Origin: CBDUXZ01 sp965371325 [NCBI: uncultured bacterium] | GTDB lineage: Bacteria > JAUYMQ01 | Length of the DNA: 6,586 nucleotides | Reading direction: 5' to 3' | Assembly (NCBI GenBank): GCA_965371325.1 | Contig: CBDUXZ010000108.1 | Location: forward strand, 1-6,586 | In this document: piece by piece, positions 1 through 6,586 of the stretch | Position numbering within the stretch: position 1 is the stretch's first letter | How the letters are laid out: each line of letters starts with the position of its first letter | Notes under the pieces: model-generated | Database searches by the model: none | The model's input: the letters and a program-made list of their open reading frames with translations, nothing else | What the model was told of the DNA's origin: nothing | Program-made: the position numbers and the translations under genes

Positions 1-1021
1 GCCCTTCAGCACGGGCGAGACGAAGTTTCTAAGGGGACCCGGTCGCCGTGAGATCGGGCACGGGGTGCTCGCGGATCGCGCGTTGCGGGGCCAGCTCCCG
101 CCCGCCGAGAAGTTCCCATACACCATTCGAGTCGTGAGCGAGATCCTCGAGTCGAATGGATCGTCCTCCATGGCGACGGTTTGCGGCGGCTCGCTTTCGA
201 TGATGGATGCGGGGGTGCCGCTCGGGGACGCGGTGGCGGGAATCGCGATGGGGCTCATCAAGGAAGGCGGCAAGATCGCGGTGCTCACGGACATCCTCGG
301 TGATGAAGATCATCTGGGCGACATGGACTTCAAGGTGACGGGGACGGCCGCCGGTGTGACCGCGCTTCAGATGGACATCAAGATCGATGAGGGAGTAAGC
401 CGGGAGGTGCTTACCCAGGCCCTGGAGCAGGCGCGGACCGCGCGGCTCCACGTACTGGAGCGCATGAACGCGGCCCTCTCCGCGCCGCGGGACGATCTCT
501 CCACCTACGCGCCGCGCATCGAGACGGTCTGGATCAAGCCCGACAGGATCCGCGACGTCATCGGCCCGGGGGGGAAGGTGATCAAGGGGATCCAGAGCCG
601 GACCGGCGCGAAACTGGACGTCGATGACAGCGGCGAGATACGCGTTGCCTCGGCCGATCTCAAGGCGCTCGAGCAGGCCAAGGCGATGATCCGCGAGCTT
701 ACGCAGGAAGCCGAGATAGGGCGCGTGTACCTGGGCAAGGTTCGCAAGATCATGGACTTCGGCGCCTTCGTGGAGATCTTCCCCGGCACGGACGGCCTCG
801 TGCACATCTCGGAGCTGGCCCACAAGCGCGTCAACAAGGTCACGGACATCCTGAACGACGGGGACGAGGTCATGGTGAAATGTCTCGAAATCGATCCCCA
901 GGGGAAAATCCGACTTTCACGAAAAGCGGCGCTTGGAGATCTCGACGACGGGCAGACGGGCGGGGACAAGCCGACTCCCGCTCCGCGCGACGGAGGCGGG
1001 GGGCACCGCCGCCGCCGCTGA
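1..1021 (+). CDS. pnp: Polyribonucleotide nucleotidyltransferase (PNPase), C-terminal part, 5' truncated by window edge
   Basis: PNPase is a trimeric, phosphorolytic 3'-to-5' exoribonuclease of mRNA turnover that can also add 3' tails. The frame is open from the first base, with codons starting at base 2, so about 339 C-terminal residues are visible and the first RNase PH domain lies outside the window. The second RNase PH domain shows the RREIGHG segment, the [20 protein letters not shown] block and the active-site [14 protein letters not shown] block at 290-331, with its acidic catalytic/metal residues. A KH domain follows with the GPGG loop at 563-574, then an S1 RNA-binding domain at about 710-937 ([24 protein letters not shown]). 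The protein ends in a Gly-rich tail closing in HRRRR, which probably adds RNA contact. The terminator 10 bases after the stop marks the end of the upstream unit. Family assignment is essentially certain. Confidence 0.98.
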
Positions 1022-1030
1022 GTCCCTTCG

Positions 1031-1059
1031 CTCCCCGCGCCCGGCGGGGAGTCGTTTTT
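1031..1059 (+). terminator. Intrinsic terminator after pnp
   Basis: A perfect 8-bp GC-rich stem (CTCCCCGC at 1031-1038 with GCGGGGAG at 1044-1051) closes a 5-base loop. Three bases later comes a run of five T (1055-1059). It begins 10 bases after the pnp stop. No T-run lies on the other side, so it works in the + direction only. Its 3' end abuts the dut ribosome binding site, leaving room for partial readthrough into dut. Confidence 0.85.
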
Positions 1060-1066
1060 AGGAAGG
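1060..1066 (+). promoter_or_regulatory. Ribosome binding site of dut
   Basis: AGGAAGG sits 3 bases before the GTG at 1070 (6 bases if the AGGA core is counted). It supports that start over the in-frame ATG at 1100. It starts on the base directly after the T-run of the pnp terminator, so any mRNA made by readthrough carries the hairpin immediately upstream of this site. Confidence 0.65.
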
Positions 1067-1069
1067 CGC

Positions 1070-1525
1070 GTGGAGGAGATCAAGATTCCGATCCGACGGA
1101 TGCGCCCGGAGGGGGATGCCGATCTGCCCCTTCCCGCCGCCATGTCGTCTCACGCCGCGGGTGTGGATCTGCCGGCGGCGATCGAAGGGAGCGTCGCCCT
1201 TGCCCCGGGCGACAGGAAGTCGGTGCCGACCGGCTTCTCGATCGCGTTGCCGCCCGGTTATGAGGGGCAGGTGCGTCCCCGCAGCGGTCTGGCCCTCCGT
1301 CACGGCCTCACCGTCGCGAACGCACCCGGAACCATCGACGCCGATTACCGCGGCGAGATCTGTGTGATACTTGTCAACCTGGGAGACAAGCCCGTTACAA
1401 TCAGGCGCGGCGATCGTATAGCCCAGCTGGTTGTAGCGCCCGTCGCCCGCCCCGTGTGGACGGAGGTTTCCGAGTTGCCCGCCAGCCAGCGGGGAGGAGG
1501 AGGTTTCGGACACACGGGCGATTGA
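1070..1525 (+). CDS. dut: Deoxyuridine 5'-triphosphate nucleotidohydrolase (dUTPase)
   Basis: It hydrolyses dUTP to dUMP and pyrophosphate. This keeps uracil out of DNA and supplies dUMP for thymidylate synthesis; the family is a cytosolic homotrimer. At 151 residues the length is normal. All five family motifs are present in order: AAGVDL (29-34), PRSGLA (70-75), [11 protein letters not shown] (87-97, with catalytic Asp90 and the uracil-pocket Tyr93), DRIAQLVV (115-122) and the C-terminal P-loop-like arm [10 protein letters not shown] (141-150) that closes over the nucleotide. The start is GTG at 1070, behind AGGAAGG; starting at 1100 would drop the first beta strand. The gene stands alone between the pnp terminator and the promoter over its own stop codon. 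I see no convincing promoter of its own close by, so it may depend on readthrough or on a promoter inside pnp. Confidence 0.97.
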
Positions 1526-1551
1526 CGGGATCGGGGAGGCTCGGTTATAAC
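1522..1551 (+). promoter_or_regulatory. Predicted sigma70-type promoter of the cdsA-purine operon
   Basis: TTGACG (1522-1527, 5 of 6 matches to the -35 consensus) and TATAAC (1546-1551, 5 of 6 to the -10) are separated by 18 bases. The TATAAC block is a rare AT-rich island in this GC-rich sequence. The -35 box covers the dut stop codon (TGA, 1523-1525). Transcription would begin near 1557-1560. Prediction is by consensus match and position only. Confidence 0.6.
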
Positions 1552-1579
1552 TGTCTGGGCCCTTTCCAATGCATCTTGC

Positions 1580-1598
1580 GCCTTTCCCCGGGAAAGGC
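1580..1598 (+). other. Leader hairpin 1
   Basis: CCTTTCCC (1581-1588) and GGGAAAGG (1590-1597) form a perfect inverted repeat around one central base, extended by a G-C pair at 1580/1598. As RNA it would fold with about 7-8 bp and a 3-nt loop. No T-run follows, so it is not a complete intrinsic terminator. Its role is unknown. Confidence 0.5.
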
Positions 1599-1632
1599 AT
1601 CTCCCGTCATCAAAGCACTGCGCGCAATCATT

Positions 1633-1651
1633 GCCGGTGAGCTTCGCCGGC
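1633..1651 (+). other. Leader hairpin 2
   Basis: GCCGGTGA (1633-1640) pairs with TCGCCGGC (1644-1651), including one G-U pair, around a 3-base loop. This stable GC-rich stem lies about 30 bases before the cdsA ribosome binding site. No T-run follows. It could protect or structure the leader; function is inferred only from position. Confidence 0.45.
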
Positions 1652-1693
1652 CGCCCCCTCCAGCGGTCCGCCGAGGGCGCGGGGAGAGAGTGA

Positions 1694-2773
1694 GTGGACG
1701 AACGCGCCTTCCCTCACGGTCAGCACGACGAGCACGCCGGCGATCCGGAGAGCTCAGATACGCCGGAAATCACCCCGGCGTTCGAAACCGCCCCGGGTGA
1801 AACCGGCGCTTCGGAAGAACCGGCAACCCCCCCCGGGGGGCGCGTCTCGCGCTCTCTGCGGCTGCGTCTCCTCAGTGCCGCGGTCCTCATCCCCACCGCC
1901 CTTATCCTCATTGCCACGGGAGGCCTCCCGTTCCTCCTGGTGGTTGTCGCAATCATCTGCCTTGCGCTCAGGGAGTTTTACGAGATCATCGAGGTCAAGG
2001 GCCTTCATCCGCAGAAGATGGCCGGGATTGGGGGTGCGGCGCTCCTGGGAATCGTGAGCTGGGTGGGGAACGAGTACCAGACCAACGTGCTCCTGACCGC
2101 GGTGCTGCTAATCGTCATGATCCTCCAGCTGCTCAAACGCGACGTCGCCGAGGCGATCTCCGGTATCTCGGCGACATTCTTCGGCGTGTTCTACGTCGGG
2201 TGGCTGACATCCCACGCCATTCTCTTGCGGCGGATGGACGAGATTCTCCGGATCAAGTACGGCGCCCCCGCGGAAGGCCCTTTCTGGATAGGCGGTCTGT
2301 TCGTCGATCAGAGCCTCGTGCAGTACCTCGGCATCTTCCTGCTGATGTTTTGTGTAGCGACGATCGCGGCGACCGACGCGGGGGCCTACTTCGTGGGCCG
2401 TCGCTACGGCCGGAGGAAGCTCGCGCCGCGTATATCGCCCAACAAGACCGTCGAGGGCGCGCTTGGAGGCATTTTCGGCGGAGTTCTCGTCGGCTCGATC
2501 TTCTGGGCTATCTTTAACTACTGGATGCTGGACAACCCGCTGCTTCCCTTCTGGCAGATGATCGTTCTGACGATGCTCTTGTCCGTCTTCGGGATTCTCG
2601 GGGATCTGGCCGAATCGCTCATCAAGCGCGACGCCCAGACGAAAGACACCGGAACCCTTATCCCCGGGATGGGAGGAATGCTCGATCGTATCGACAGCCA
2701 CATGGTCGCGTTTCCGGTTCTGTACTACTACATGAGCGCCTGGTTCTTCTTCCGTTCCTACGTGGGTGGATGA
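1694..2773 (+). CDS. cdsA: Phosphatidate cytidylyltransferase (CDP-diglyceride synthase)
   Basis: This integral membrane enzyme converts phosphatidic acid and CTP to CDP-diacylglycerol, the precursor of bacterial phospholipids. The start is GTG at 1694: an in-frame TGA lies directly before it, GGAG at 1683-1686 is well spaced, and no later start precedes the first membrane segment. At 359 residues it is longer than the usual 260-290. An acidic, Pro/Thr/Glu-rich, probably disordered N-terminus of about 50 residues precedes the first hydrophobic helix, and an extra loop lies at about 181-211. Several membrane helices follow. The conserved ATDAGAYFVGRRYG (Asp228) and ISPNKTVEGALGG (Lys251) blocks are present, as is the C-terminal signature from Ser308 (SLIKRD, KD 317-318, LDRID with Asp331 and Asp334). 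The signature's usual His, in PGHGG, is Met326 here. It is the first gene behind the predicted promoter and lies 50 bases before purB. Confidence 0.95.
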   Translation: MDERAFPHGQHDEHAGDPESSDTPEITPAFETAPGETGASEEPATPPGGRVSRSLRLRLLSAAVLIPTALILIATGGLPFLLVVVAIICLALREFYEIIEVKGLHPQKMAGIGGAALLGIVSWVGNEYQTNVLLTAVLLIVMILQLLKRDVAEAISGISATFFGVFYVGWLTSHAILLRRMDEILRIKYGAPAEGPFWIGGLFVDQSLVQYLGIFLLMFCVATIAATDAGAYFVGRRYGRRKLAPRISPNKTVEGALGGIFGGVLVGSIFWAIFNYWMLDNPLLPFWQMIVLTMLLSVFGILGDLAESLIKRDAQTKDTGTLIPGMGGMLDRIDSHMVAFPVLYYYMSAWFFFRSYVGG

Positions 2774-2810
2774 AGCGTTTGGGTCCGCGGTCGCAGGGTC
2801 GCCGCGGATC

Positions 2811-2819
2811 AGGGAGGAG
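2811..2819 (+). promoter_or_regulatory. Ribosome binding site that fixes the purB start
   Basis: AGGGAGGAG sits 4 bases before GTG 2824 (about 6 from the GGAGG core). It favours that start over the upstream in-frame ATG at 2770, which overlaps the cdsA stop but has only a weak purine tract before it. Confidence 0.75.
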
Positions 2820-2823
2820 TGCT

Positions 2824-4167
2824 GTGATTCCACGTTATTCCCGGCCTGAGATGAGCGCTCTCTGGACAGCCGATGCCCGATACGGCGCCTGGCTCCGTGT
2901 GGAGATCGCCGTGTGCGAGGAGCAGGCGCGGCGAGGCGAGATTCCAAAGCGGGCGTTCCAGACGATCAAGAAGAAGGCCCGCTTCGACGCGGCGCGCATC
3001 GATGCCATCGAGAAGAAGGTCAAGCACGACGTCATCGCGTTTCTGACGAACGTGGCGGAGAGCGTCGGGCCGGAGGCGCGCTACATACACCTGGGGCTCA
3101 CCAGCTCCGACATCCTCGACACGGCTCTCGCCCTCCAGCTCAAGGCCGCCGCTGATCTCCTCCTCGCCGATATTGATGCCCTCAAGAAGGTTCTCCGGAA
3201 GAGGGCCCTCGAGCACAAGCAGACGGTGATGATCGGGCGCTCTCACGGGATGCACGCCGAGCCGATCACCTTCGGGCTCAAGCTGGCGCTCTGGTATGCG
3301 GAGATGGAGCGTCATCGTGAGCGGCTCGAGCGGGCGCGGGAGGGCGTGGCCGTGGGGAAGCTTTCCGGTGCGGTGGGAACCTTCGTTTATCTCGATCCCG
3401 CCGTGGAGGCGGCGGTTCTCAAACGGCTGGGCCTTTCAGCGGAGCCCGTGGCGTCCCAGGTCGTGCAACGTGACCGGCATGGTGAGTTCTTCGGCACCCT
3501 CGCCCTCGTCGGAGCGAGTATCGAGAAGATCGCCGTCGAAGTTCGCCATCTCCAGCGAACGGAAGTAGCGGAGGCGGAGGAGTTCTTCTCGGAGGGGCAG
3601 AAAGGGTCGTCCGCGATGCCCCACAAACGAAACCCGATCGCGTCCGAGAACCTGTCGGGCCTGGCGCGCGTTCTGCGCGGCAACGCTCAGGCGGCCCTCG
3701 AAAACGTACCGCTCTGGCACGAGCGCGACATCAGCCACTCGAGCGTGGAGCGGATAATCGGCCCCGACAGCACCATCCTTCTCGACTACATGCTGGCGCG
3801 CCTCACGCGGCTGCTCGAGCGCCTCGTGGTATATCCGGAGCGGATGAAGCGAAACCTCGAGATCACCCGCGGCCTGGTCTTTTCCCAGCGCGTATTACTG
3901 GAACTCGCTCGACACGGTGCCTCCCGGGAGGACGCCTATGAATGGGTGCAGCGCAACGCGATGCGTGCGCAGAAGGACGGCGAAGATTTCAAGGATCTGC
4001 TCCTGAAGGATCGCGACGTCGCCCGGATGCTGCGCCCGGCAGAGCTTCGTGCCTGCTTCGATCTGAAGGACTACCTGAAGCACGTAAACACGCTCCTGAG
4101 GCGCGCCTTCGGGACTTCCTCCGGGGGAGGGGGAAAGCGTGGGGGCGTGCAACGCAAGCGCCGCTGA
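2824..4167 (+). CDS. purB: Adenylosuccinate lyase
   Basis: It catalyses two fumarate-releasing steps of purine synthesis: SAICAR to AICAR, and adenylosuccinate to AMP. It belongs to the fumarase/aspartase superfamily of homotetramers. From GTG 2824 the protein has 447 residues and begins MIPRYSRPEMSALW, the typical family N-terminus. With this start the key histidines fall at His68 (KHDV), His89 (YIHLGLTSSD) and His141 (GRSHGMHAEP), the same numbers as in the Bacillus subtilis enzyme, which supports the choice. The superfamily signature GSSAMPHKRNP, with the catalytic serine, covers residues 261-271. The end is longer than usual, finishing in a Gly-rich then Lys/Arg-rich tail (GGGGKRGGVQRKRR). 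An alternative start at ATG 2770 would overlap the cdsA stop and add 18 basic residues. purC follows after 24 bases. Confidence 0.97.
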   Translation: MIPRYSRPEMSALWTADARYGAWLRVEIAVCEEQARRGEIPKRAFQTIKKKARFDAARIDAIEKKVKHDVIAFLTNVAESVGPEARYIHLGLTSSDILDTALALQLKAAADLLLADIDALKKVLRKRALEHKQTVMIGRSHGMHAEPITFGLKLALWYAEMERHRERLERAREGVAVGKLSGAVGTFVYLDPAVEAAVLKRLGLSAEPVASQVVQRDRHGEFFGTLALVGASIEKIAVEVRHLQRTEVAEAEEFFSEGQKGSSAMPHKRNPIASENLSGLARVLRGNAQAALENVPLWHERDISHSSVERIIGPDSTILLDYMLARLTRLLERLVVYPERMKRNLEITRGLVFSQRVLLELARHGASREDAYEWVQRNAMRAQKDGEDFKDLLLKDRDVARMLRPAELRACFDLKDYLKHVNTLLRRAFGTSSGGGGKRGGVQRKRR

Positions 4168-4191
4168 CAGGCCCGGTGGCAGGGAGATGGC

Positions 4192-4929
4192 ATGACACAG
4201 ACGAACACGCCTGAAAGACGCGAGAAGATTCACGAAGGTAAAGCGAAGATCGTCTACGCGACGAGTGATCCCGGTTACATTATCCAGTACTTCAAGGACG
4301 ACGCGACCGCGTTTGACGCGAAGAAGCGCGGGACGATCATCGACAAGGGAGTCATCAACAACCGCATCTCCTGCTTCCTCTTCGAACGCCTCGAAGAGAA
4401 CGGTGTGCGGACGCACTTTGTTCGGAAGCTCTCCGATCGCGAGATGCTCTGCAAGCGGCTCGAGATTATCCTCGTCGAGGTGGTCGTCCGGAACGTCGTG
4501 GCGGGGAGTCTGGCGAAGCGGATGGGCCTCGAGGAGGGGAAAACGCTACCGCGGCCCATTCTCGAGCATTACTACAAGCGGGATGATCTCAGCGATCCGC
4601 CGCTGAACGAGGAACACATCCTCGTCTTCAACCTCGCGACACGGGAGGAGCTCGATCACATCCGCGACGAGGCCTTCAAGGTGAACGACTTTCTGCTGAA
4701 GTTCCTCGATCAGCGCGACATCCGCCTCGTCGACTTCAAGCTCGAGTTCGGGCGCGGGCAGGAGAGCCATGCGGGGCAGATTCTTCTGGGTGACGAGATC
4801 ACGCCCGACGGCTGCCGCTTCTGGGACAAGGCGACCAACGAGAAGCTCGACAAGGACCGTTTCCGGCGTGATCTCGGAAAGCTGGAGGAGACTTATCAGG
4901 AGGTCGCCCGAAGAATCTGCGATACCTGA
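4192..4929 (+). CDS. purC: Phosphoribosylaminoimidazole-succinocarboxamide synthase (SAICAR synthetase)
   Basis: It joins CAIR and aspartate, using ATP, to give SAICAR, the substrate of PurB encoded just upstream. At 245 residues the length is typical of the short bacterial form. ATG 4192 follows AGGGAG (4181-4186). N-terminal IHEGKAKIVY (Gly16-Lys19) is the ATP-loop region of the fold. LVEVVVRNVVAGSL is a central family block. LVDFKLEFG (179-187) and the GDEITPDGCRFWD block (from Gly200, with Asp201 and Glu202) are the two PROSITE-type signature regions, holding metal and substrate contacts. The sequence is intact, with nothing odd. A 48-base gap follows before purS. Confidence 0.98.
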   Translation: MTQTNTPERREKIHEGKAKIVYATSDPGYIIQYFKDDATAFDAKKRGTIIDKGVINNRISCFLFERLEENGVRTHFVRKLSDREMLCKRLEIILVEVVVRNVVAGSLAKRMGLEEGKTLPRPILEHYYKRDDLSDPPLNEEHILVFNLATREELDHIRDEAFKVNDFLLKFLDQRDIRLVDFKLEFGRGQESHAGQILLGDEITPDGCRFWDKATNEKLDKDRFRRDLGKLEETYQEVARRICDT

Positions 4930-4977
4930 GCGGCCCATGGCCGCCACGCCCGATAGGGGGCCAAAGTCAGGAGGACC

Positions 4978-5223
4978 ATGAAGGCCAGGGTCATCGTCAT
5001 GCCGAAGGAGGGGGTGCTGGATCCCCAGGGGAAAGCGATCCAGGGATCCCTTCACGCGTTGGGCTACGACACCGTCAGTGACGTTCGTGCCGGCAAGTGC
5101 TTCGTTGTCGAGTTCGGTGACGTCCCGTCAGAGAAGGCCAGGGCGCTTCTCGACGAGATGAGCGAGAAGCTCCTCGCCAACCCGCTGATCGAGAGTTGGA
5201 AGATCGAGCTGGAGAAAGCGTGA
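4978..5223 (+). CDS. purS: Phosphoribosylformylglycinamidine synthase, PurS subunit
   Basis: PurS is the small structural subunit of FGAM synthase in bacteria with small-type PurL. In the Thermotoga and Bacillus complexes a PurS dimer bridges PurL and PurQ and is needed for ammonia transfer between them. The 81-residue protein ([20 protein letters not shown]...) matches the family in length and pattern: the VLDPQGKAI segment, the [12 protein letters not shown] turn, and a C-terminal strand ending [13 protein letters not shown] 4978 is preceded by a perfect AGGAGG (4969-4974). Its stop overlaps the next GTG start by 4 bases (GTGA), implying coupled translation of the two proteins that must assemble. 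It remains a separate gene although PurQ and PurL are fused downstream. Confidence 0.97.
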
Positions 5224-6586
5224 GGGCAAGCAGGCGAGAGGATATCCGGGTCGGCGTCGTGGTTTTTCCGGGTTCCTGCGACGACCACGACACCTACCAT
5301 GCCTTCTCGCGCGTGCTTGGAGTTTCCACGCGCTTTCTCTGGCACCGCGAACAGTCCCTCGACGATCTCCATGCCGTCGTACTCCCCGGCGGTTTTTCCT
5401 ACGGCGACTACCTGCGCTGCGGCGCGATGGCAAAGTTCTCACCGGTGATGGGGGCGATCCACCGCTTCGCCGCAAGCGGGGGCTTCGTCCTCGGGATCTG
5501 CAACGGCTTCCAGATTCTCTGCGAGGCGGGGTTGCTCCCGGGCGTGCTCGTGCGCAACCGCTCCCTGCGCTTCGTGTGCGATCCCCGCCAACCCCTCCGC
5601 GTCGAGCGCCCGGGGGGACCATGGACGGGGGGTTTCCGGGAAGGAGAGGTCCTTCGCTTCCCGATCAAACATGGAGAGGGGTGCTACTTCGCGGATCCCC
5701 CGACCCTTAAGACCCTGGAGGCCAGCGGCCGCATCCCCTTCCGATACGCCACGCCAACCGGTGGCGTCACCGATGCGGCAAACCCGAACGGCTCCCTCCG
5801 GAGCATTGCGGGCGTCACGAACGCCGGGGGGAATGTGCTCGGCCTCATGCCTCACCCCGAGCATGCGGTGGAGTCGCTTCTGGGGGGAGGGGACGGCCGC
5901 CGGATATTCGAGTCGCTGATATCCCACCTTCTCGCCTCCGGCGCCGAGACGACCGCCGCAACGGAGGGTTCCCAGACCGGCGCCGATGCGCGGAAGCGGG
6001 CCCCCCAGGAGGGGACCGTCCCTGCGCCAAAGCGCCCCGCGCCCCCGGAAGGCGGCCCCGCCGTCACGCCGGAAGCCGTTCTTCGCCACGGGTTGACGGA
6101 GGAGGAGTTCGGGCGCATCGAAAAGATTCTCGGCCGCACGCCGAATTTCACGGAGCTGGGCATCTTCTCCGTCATGTGGAGCGAGCACTGCTCCTACAAG
6201 TCGAGCCGTGTGCACTTGAGAAAGCTCCCCACCACGGGCGCGCGGGTGCTCCAGGGGCCCGGCGAGAACGCGGGGATCATCGACATCGGCGAGGGCTACG
6301 GCGTGGCGTTCAAGGTGGAGAGCCATAACCACCCGAGCTTCATAGAGCCTTACCAGGGCGCGGCCACCGGCGTGGGGGGCATCCTGCGCGATGTCTTCAC
6401 GATGGGGGCACGCCCCATCGCTTCTCTTGACTCCCTCCGTTTCGGAACCCTCGACGACCCCTGGCAGCGGCATCTGCTCGACGGCGTGGTACGGGGAATC
6501 GGGGGCTACGGAAACTCCTTCGGCTGCCCGACCGTCGGGGGAGAGACGAGCTTCCACCCCTCCTACAACGGCAACATTCTCGTGAA
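5220..6586 (+). CDS. purQL: PurQ-PurL fusion: FGAM synthase glutaminase domain followed by synthetase domain, 3' truncated by window edge
   Basis: FGAM synthase converts FGAR, glutamine and ATP to FGAM (step 4 of purine synthesis). One frame stays open from GTG 5220 to the window end (455 complete codons). GGAG at 5211-5214, inside purS, supports the start. Residues 9-239 form a complete PurQ class I glutaminase: [22 protein letters not shown], nucleophile Cys94 in GICNGFQIL, and His212/Glu214 in MPHPEHA. Residues about 240-282 are a Pro/Ala/Gly/Glu-rich linker. From about residue 283 the small-type PurL begins ([16 protein letters not shown]). It has [15 protein letters not shown] (conserved His323), [22 protein letters not shown] (Glu367, His369, His371), [16 protein letters not shown] and GCPTVGGE, then is cut by the edge. 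The segments align end to end with free-standing PurQ and PurL, with no stop or frameshift between them. The order is opposite to that of the large E. coli PurL. Confidence 0.95.
5937..6065 (+). other. Interdomain linker of the PurQ-PurL fusion
   Basis: These codons (about residues 240-282) encode a stretch rich in Ala, Pro, Gly, Glu, Thr and Lys/Arg with no hydrophobic core, lying after the last PurQ helix ([11 protein letters not shown]) and before the first PurL segment. It looks like a flexible tether. Its codon and base composition match the flanks. I see no stop codon, and no ribosome binding site before a possible internal start (for example TTG 6093). Confidence 0.8.

Follow-up and report, generated by a model that had tools for sequence, protein, structure and literature searches.

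A PurQ-PurL gene fusion, very likely genuine, that places the glutaminase ahead of the FGAM synthetase

The window, by which we mean the whole stretch of 6,586 nucleotides analysed here, ends in a single frame that encodes a PurQ glutaminase followed by the beginning of a small-type PurL, with PurS left as a separate gene upstream. We hold it to be very likely that this is a genuine gene fusion ending a purB-purC-purS-purQL run, in which the purQ stop and the purL start were lost and the resulting PurQ-PurL chain works in the usual complex with PurS. The frame, its domains, the catalytic residues, the separate PurS and an independent occurrence elsewhere are established here; the PurQ-first fusion is not unique to the window, which very probably holds a real and recurrent arrangement of known parts. 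The features are as follows.

2770 to 4167, + strand: purB (adenylosuccinate lyase), with Pfam Lyase_1 and ADSL_C
4192 to 4929, + strand: purC (SAICAR synthetase), with Pfam SAICAR_synt
4978 to 5223, + strand: purS as a separate gene, NF004630 99.6 bits (cut-off 75) and TIGR00302 78.3 bits (cut-off 39), with AGGAGG at 4969
5220 to 6584, + strand: purQL fused frame, 455 residues up to the window end, where it is still open (list of open reading frames)
5244 to 5927, + strand: PurQ glutaminase domain, residues 9-236, from profiles, Cys94/His212/Glu214 and a structural match to 3d54_D
5928 to 6092, + strand: linker, residues 237-291, 55 codons with no stop and no in-frame ATG, GTG or TTG; residues 246-277 have pLDDT below 50
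6007 to 6012, + strand: AGGAGG, with five bases between it and an in-frame GTC (6018)
6093 to 6584, + strand: N-terminal 164 residues of a small-type PurL, from NF002290, TIGR01736 and the Pfam FGAR-AT_linker and first AIRS domains

The purQL frame opens at GTG 5220, which is overlapped by the TGA of purS (5221-5223) so that four bases are shared, and it has no stop up to the window end. Its first part matches the PurQ profiles NF002957 (301 bits, cut-off 212) and TIGR01737 (279 bits, cut-off 177.8) over residues 9-236 or 10-236, and this whole-domain match above the curated cut-offs, together with the Cys/His/Glu triad, makes it a member of the PurQ family. Residues 292-455 correspond to positions 1-164 of NF002290 and TIGR01736 and score 308.6 bits against a cut-off of 648, the window end leaving 164 of the 718-723 model positions and placing the 3' three quarters of purL beyond it. 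Along the frame lie Pfam matches to GATase_5, FGAR-AT_linker (from residue 289) and AIRS, and PurL is represented by its motifs SEHCSYK (321), SHNHPS (368) and [12 protein letters not shown] (376). The first-pass annotation, made from the letters alone, had described a frame without a stop from 5220 to 6584 in which a full PurQ with Cys94, His212 and Glu214 runs into a small-type PurL, glutaminase first and PurS a separate upstream gene; the domain search that it proposed and the residue check bear this out, with PurQ above the TIGR01737 cut-off and PurL matched in the same frame over positions 1-164.

The genes upstream of purS (2-4929) are pnp, with its 5' end cut off, dut, cdsA, purB and purC, all in one direction, with cdsA and purB overlapping by four bases. 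Many of the listed loci repeat the order purB-purC-purS-purQ-purL, with purC present or absent, and pnp also lies within ~7 kb of purQ in genomes G003, G329, G308 and G365. The PNPase of the window has its best match at 70% (G470), with 71% over 193 residues in G009 and 78% over 111 residues in G666, and none of the matches found points to close kin. Long antisense open frames at 5439-6557, 2108-2947 and 29-823, all on the - strand, have no Pfam match; such frames are common in G+C-rich coding DNA. No Rfam family matches anywhere in the window at its gathering score, and promoter- and terminator-like patterns are few or of unclear meaning (seven terminator-like patterns against 2.7 expected; on the + strand, one lies within purQ and one within purL).

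The stop-free linker of 55 codons is by itself unremarkable in such G+C-rich DNA: from base composition, the chance of meeting no stop in 55 such codons is ~0.58 and that of meeting no start ~0.40. The claim of a fusion is carried by the lack of a stop, the lack of a start and the in-frame PurL homology taken together, since a ribosome translating purQ must then enter purL. After PurQ, no start-like codon comes up in frame until TTG 6093, which coincides with the PurL landmark. Among 107 distinct adjacent purQ-purL pairs, the 101 that remain after the six fused ones are set aside all have an ATG, GTG or TTG start within 45 codons upstream of this landmark, and in 100 of them it is ATG or GTG. 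The spacing of PurQ and PurL in the window, 177 bases, compares with a median of 96 in the unfused pairs and is reached by 17 of the 101. The base pattern of the linker by codon position (0.82/0.69/0.82, frame 0), low at position 2 like that of the flanking genes, lends weak support to translation through it. A structured RNA at the junction was also sought, and the linker folds no better than its shuffles (z 0.75). The AGGAGG at 6007 may be a relic of the purL ribosome-binding site, a weak suggestion because the same motif is present eight times in the window and could be there by chance.

The same arrangement is found in the Bacillota. In the family of Alicyclobacillus sp. HOT.MB2.91 (G007), as grouped by the genome search, six of the 41 genomes encode PurQ and then PurL in one stop-free frame, the other five fused genomes belonging to that same family. 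The first-pass annotation had called for a search of related genomes for this order, and these hits show that the arrangement is not unique and make it less surprising than it had seemed. The fused locus of G007 itself, an Alicyclobacillus metagenome-assembled genome (L010), was the one fusion besides the window among the best 80 of at least 594 scan candidates. The contigs that carry two of the six family fusions measure 5.2 and 5.97 Mb; the linkers of the six span 67-98 residues, all six have a separate purS upstream, and in the three tested both PurQ and PurL are complete and score above the NCBIfam cut-offs. Pro, Ala, Gly, Ser, Thr, Gln and Glu make up 54-73% of the linkers of the window and its relatives. 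In three of the fusions (L152, L153 and L159) an in-frame ATG stands 16-24 codons upstream of the PurL landmark, close to where PurL usually begins, so these three of the six Bacillota fusions could, judging from their start codons, also yield free PurL; the other three (L010, L160 and L151) show no ATG at 60 codons or less from the landmark, and the window has no comparable in-frame ATG near its PurL start. In G258, of the same family, the PurL match is divided between two frames around query residue 335-350, which may reflect an assembly frameshift.

Searches reached 671 genomes, and what follows holds among the matches listed. Across all fetched loci ten are fused, from the six family genomes, and 164 of 216 have both genes. 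Outside the family of G007, none of the loci fetched to check fusion-like candidates is fused in one stop-free frame, and in G008, G010, G381, G462, G105, G038, G583 and others, which resembled fusions by open-frame length, the two domains never share such a frame. The loci L166 and L215 hold just one of purQ and purL. The class of G365 (145 genomes) shows no fused frame among its listed matches, so the fusion in the window may be private to one species; the class of G308 is represented in the search by one genome. The fused genes of G251, G257 and G259, which have long linkers, appeared as two pieces, so that some fusions outside the family of G007 have possibly been missed. A scan of viral contigs found PurL relatives, none fused in one frame: twelve IMG/VR contigs (L185-L196) encode them, and six rows of the tree described below are viral contigs with both PurQ and PurL. 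The PurL nearest to that of the window (as much as 79% across its N-terminal region) comes from L025 and the order of G052, where purQ and purL are nonetheless apart and mostly on different contigs.

A tree was built from 116 PurQ+PurL rows, with duplicates and loci of fewer than ~200 PurQ or 155 PurL aligned residues left out. On the best tree the fused label changes three times, for the window, for a group of four and for a group of two, the latter two both within the Alicyclobacillus family; well-supported branches force two changes. No branch with good support places the window, whose closest neighbours on the tree are unfused genes. In an AU test on 51 of the 116 rows, chosen by the analyst, a single clade of all seven fused rows is rejected under the model used (p 3.2e-6), while one of the six Alicyclobacillus-family fusions is not (p 0.19). 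With a common origin of the window's fusion and those of the Bacillota rejected, at least two separate fusion events are needed. The fused gene probably came about when a purS-purQ-purL operon lost the stop codon of purQ. Three genomes that rank high in full-length matching, G365, G666 and G612, have purQ and purL in the same frame with a single TGA between them, a state in which loss of one stop gives a fusion, and 44 of the 107 adjacent pairs are in the same frame, although the first 24 of these came from a search that ordered its hits by a single unbroken alignment and is biased towards such pairs. Loss of the stop was also the origin proposed in the first-pass annotation; it fits these three genomes and is reasoned rather than seen.

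We weighed three other explanations for the frame. The one to be taken most seriously, though we consider it unlikely, is an error of sequence or assembly, in which purQ and purL are really separate and the window has a missing base or several errors. The window rests on a single contig, and the loci fetched from outside the Alicyclobacillus family that have both genes always show separate frames or an intervening stop. When every position of the linker was changed by script, however, none of 486 substitutions and none of 162 single-base deletions gave a PurQ stop together with a PurL start; only five of 648 single-base insertions did so, two of them with an overlap of at most 30 bases. One missing base is thus a possible but improbable cause of the fused frame, and the sole nearby out-of-frame start is ATG 5986. 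Less probable again, and in our view very unlikely, is that the locus makes two products, the fusion and a free PurL whose translation would begin at a non-standard codon inside the frame, after the AGGAGG at 6007. This motif does stand five bases before the in-frame GTC, roughly where relatives begin PurL, and half of the family fusions have the upstream ATG described above. However, GTC would be an unusual start codon, the linker has no in-frame CTG, ATT, ATC or ATA, and L010, L160 and L151 do without a nearby ATG.

Descent from another fused enzyme, whether by rearrangement of the large single-chain PurL or by gene transfer of an Alicyclobacillus-family fusion, can be set aside almost entirely. 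The enzymes are the same, the domain order is that of the Alicyclobacillus family, and the window linker resembles other fused linkers at most faintly, as judged by shuffling (scores as high arise in 7 of 500 shuffles against the L010 linker and in 19 of 500 against that of L152). Against this, both halves of the window protein are of the small type, the seven fused rows are rejected as one clade and the nearest rows are unfused. The window also scores 116.7 bits against the TIGR01735 cut-off of 1123 for the large PurL and full-length L010 reaches 185 bits, each with its glutaminase first, and the PurQ part of the window aligns to the C-terminal end of that model; the first-pass proposal that the fusion arose independently of the large PurL is upheld by these scores.

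In structure models the PurQ part of the window is well modelled and matches 3d54_D, the PurQ of the T. maritima PurLQS structure (TMt 0.91), and its truncated PurL part is poorly modelled. The model of the full fused relative L010 (pLDDT 83.6, pTM 0.81) has a low-confidence linker at 220-255 and matches Thermus PurL 3viu (Z 53.5) and PurQ 3d54_D (TMt 0.92); it is poor evidence for the docking of PurQ on PurL because its input alignment consists mostly of separate PurQ and PurL rows. We propose that the purQ stop codon and the purL start codon were lost, in whichever order, giving one chain of ~1000 residues, if PurL is full length, with the glutaminase followed by the FGAM synthetase and a flexible linker of ~55 residues joining the two catalytic units. 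This chain and the separate PurS would form the usual PurS/PurL/PurQ complex, in which PurQ would hydrolyse glutamine and pass ammonia to PurL for conversion of FGAR to FGAM with ATP. The tether would set PurQ and PurL at 1:1 and couple their synthesis with the chemistry left the same, and the fixed ratio may be an advantage. The linker is most likely a passive tether in an otherwise ordinary complex.

Two formats of FGAM synthase are described, the large PurL and separate PurS, PurL and PurQ (PMC3261824, PMC3815217), with the glutaminase of the large PurL at its C-terminus (PMC3815217). The three-chain enzyme of Thermotoga maritima (PDB 3d54) shares with the window its PurQ, small PurL and PurS families and its catalytic residues, and the window has the separate purS gene of that type (4978-5223), but here PurQ and PurL lie on one chain, in one frame with no stop and no linker start. 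The large PurL (Salmonella, PDB 1t3t; TIGR01735, PRK05297) likewise carries glutaminase and synthetase on one chain, whereas in the window the glutaminase is N-terminal, no PurS-like domain precedes the synthetase and both halves score as small-type. The Alicyclobacillus-family fusions (G007/L010 and five genomes) share the order, the single stop-free frame and the separate upstream purS, and differ from the window in their independent origin, their linker and their place in the Bacillota. Some methanogens have a longer PurL, and this mdPurL (PMC3261824) is likewise a non-standard length variant, but its N-terminal extension of ~200 residues is a suspected stand-in for PurS, not PurQ. PMC10927867 describes the three-protein complex and a multidomain PurL, and PMC12632254 uses PurLQS as the name of the complex only. 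Within the open-licence PMC papers covered, no description of a PurQ-first PurQ-PurL fusion was found, in keeping with the first-pass annotation, which knew of no standard description of this architecture.

The order of glutaminase, linker and synthetase with a separate PurS probably represents a third FGAM synthase architecture, one that has arisen repeatedly (at least twice, and three times on the best tree) and that shows that either end of the synthetase can carry the tethered glutaminase; on the same reading, the PurQ-first fusion would recur because purQ precedes purL in the operon. A central purine enzyme would have been joined into one chain with its order reversed, on more than one occasion, out of genes adjacent in an operon. 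This opens simple tests of whether it matters for ammonia transfer and for the role of PurS which end of the synthetase bears the glutaminase, and makes it testable whether operon gene order predicts domain order in fusions.
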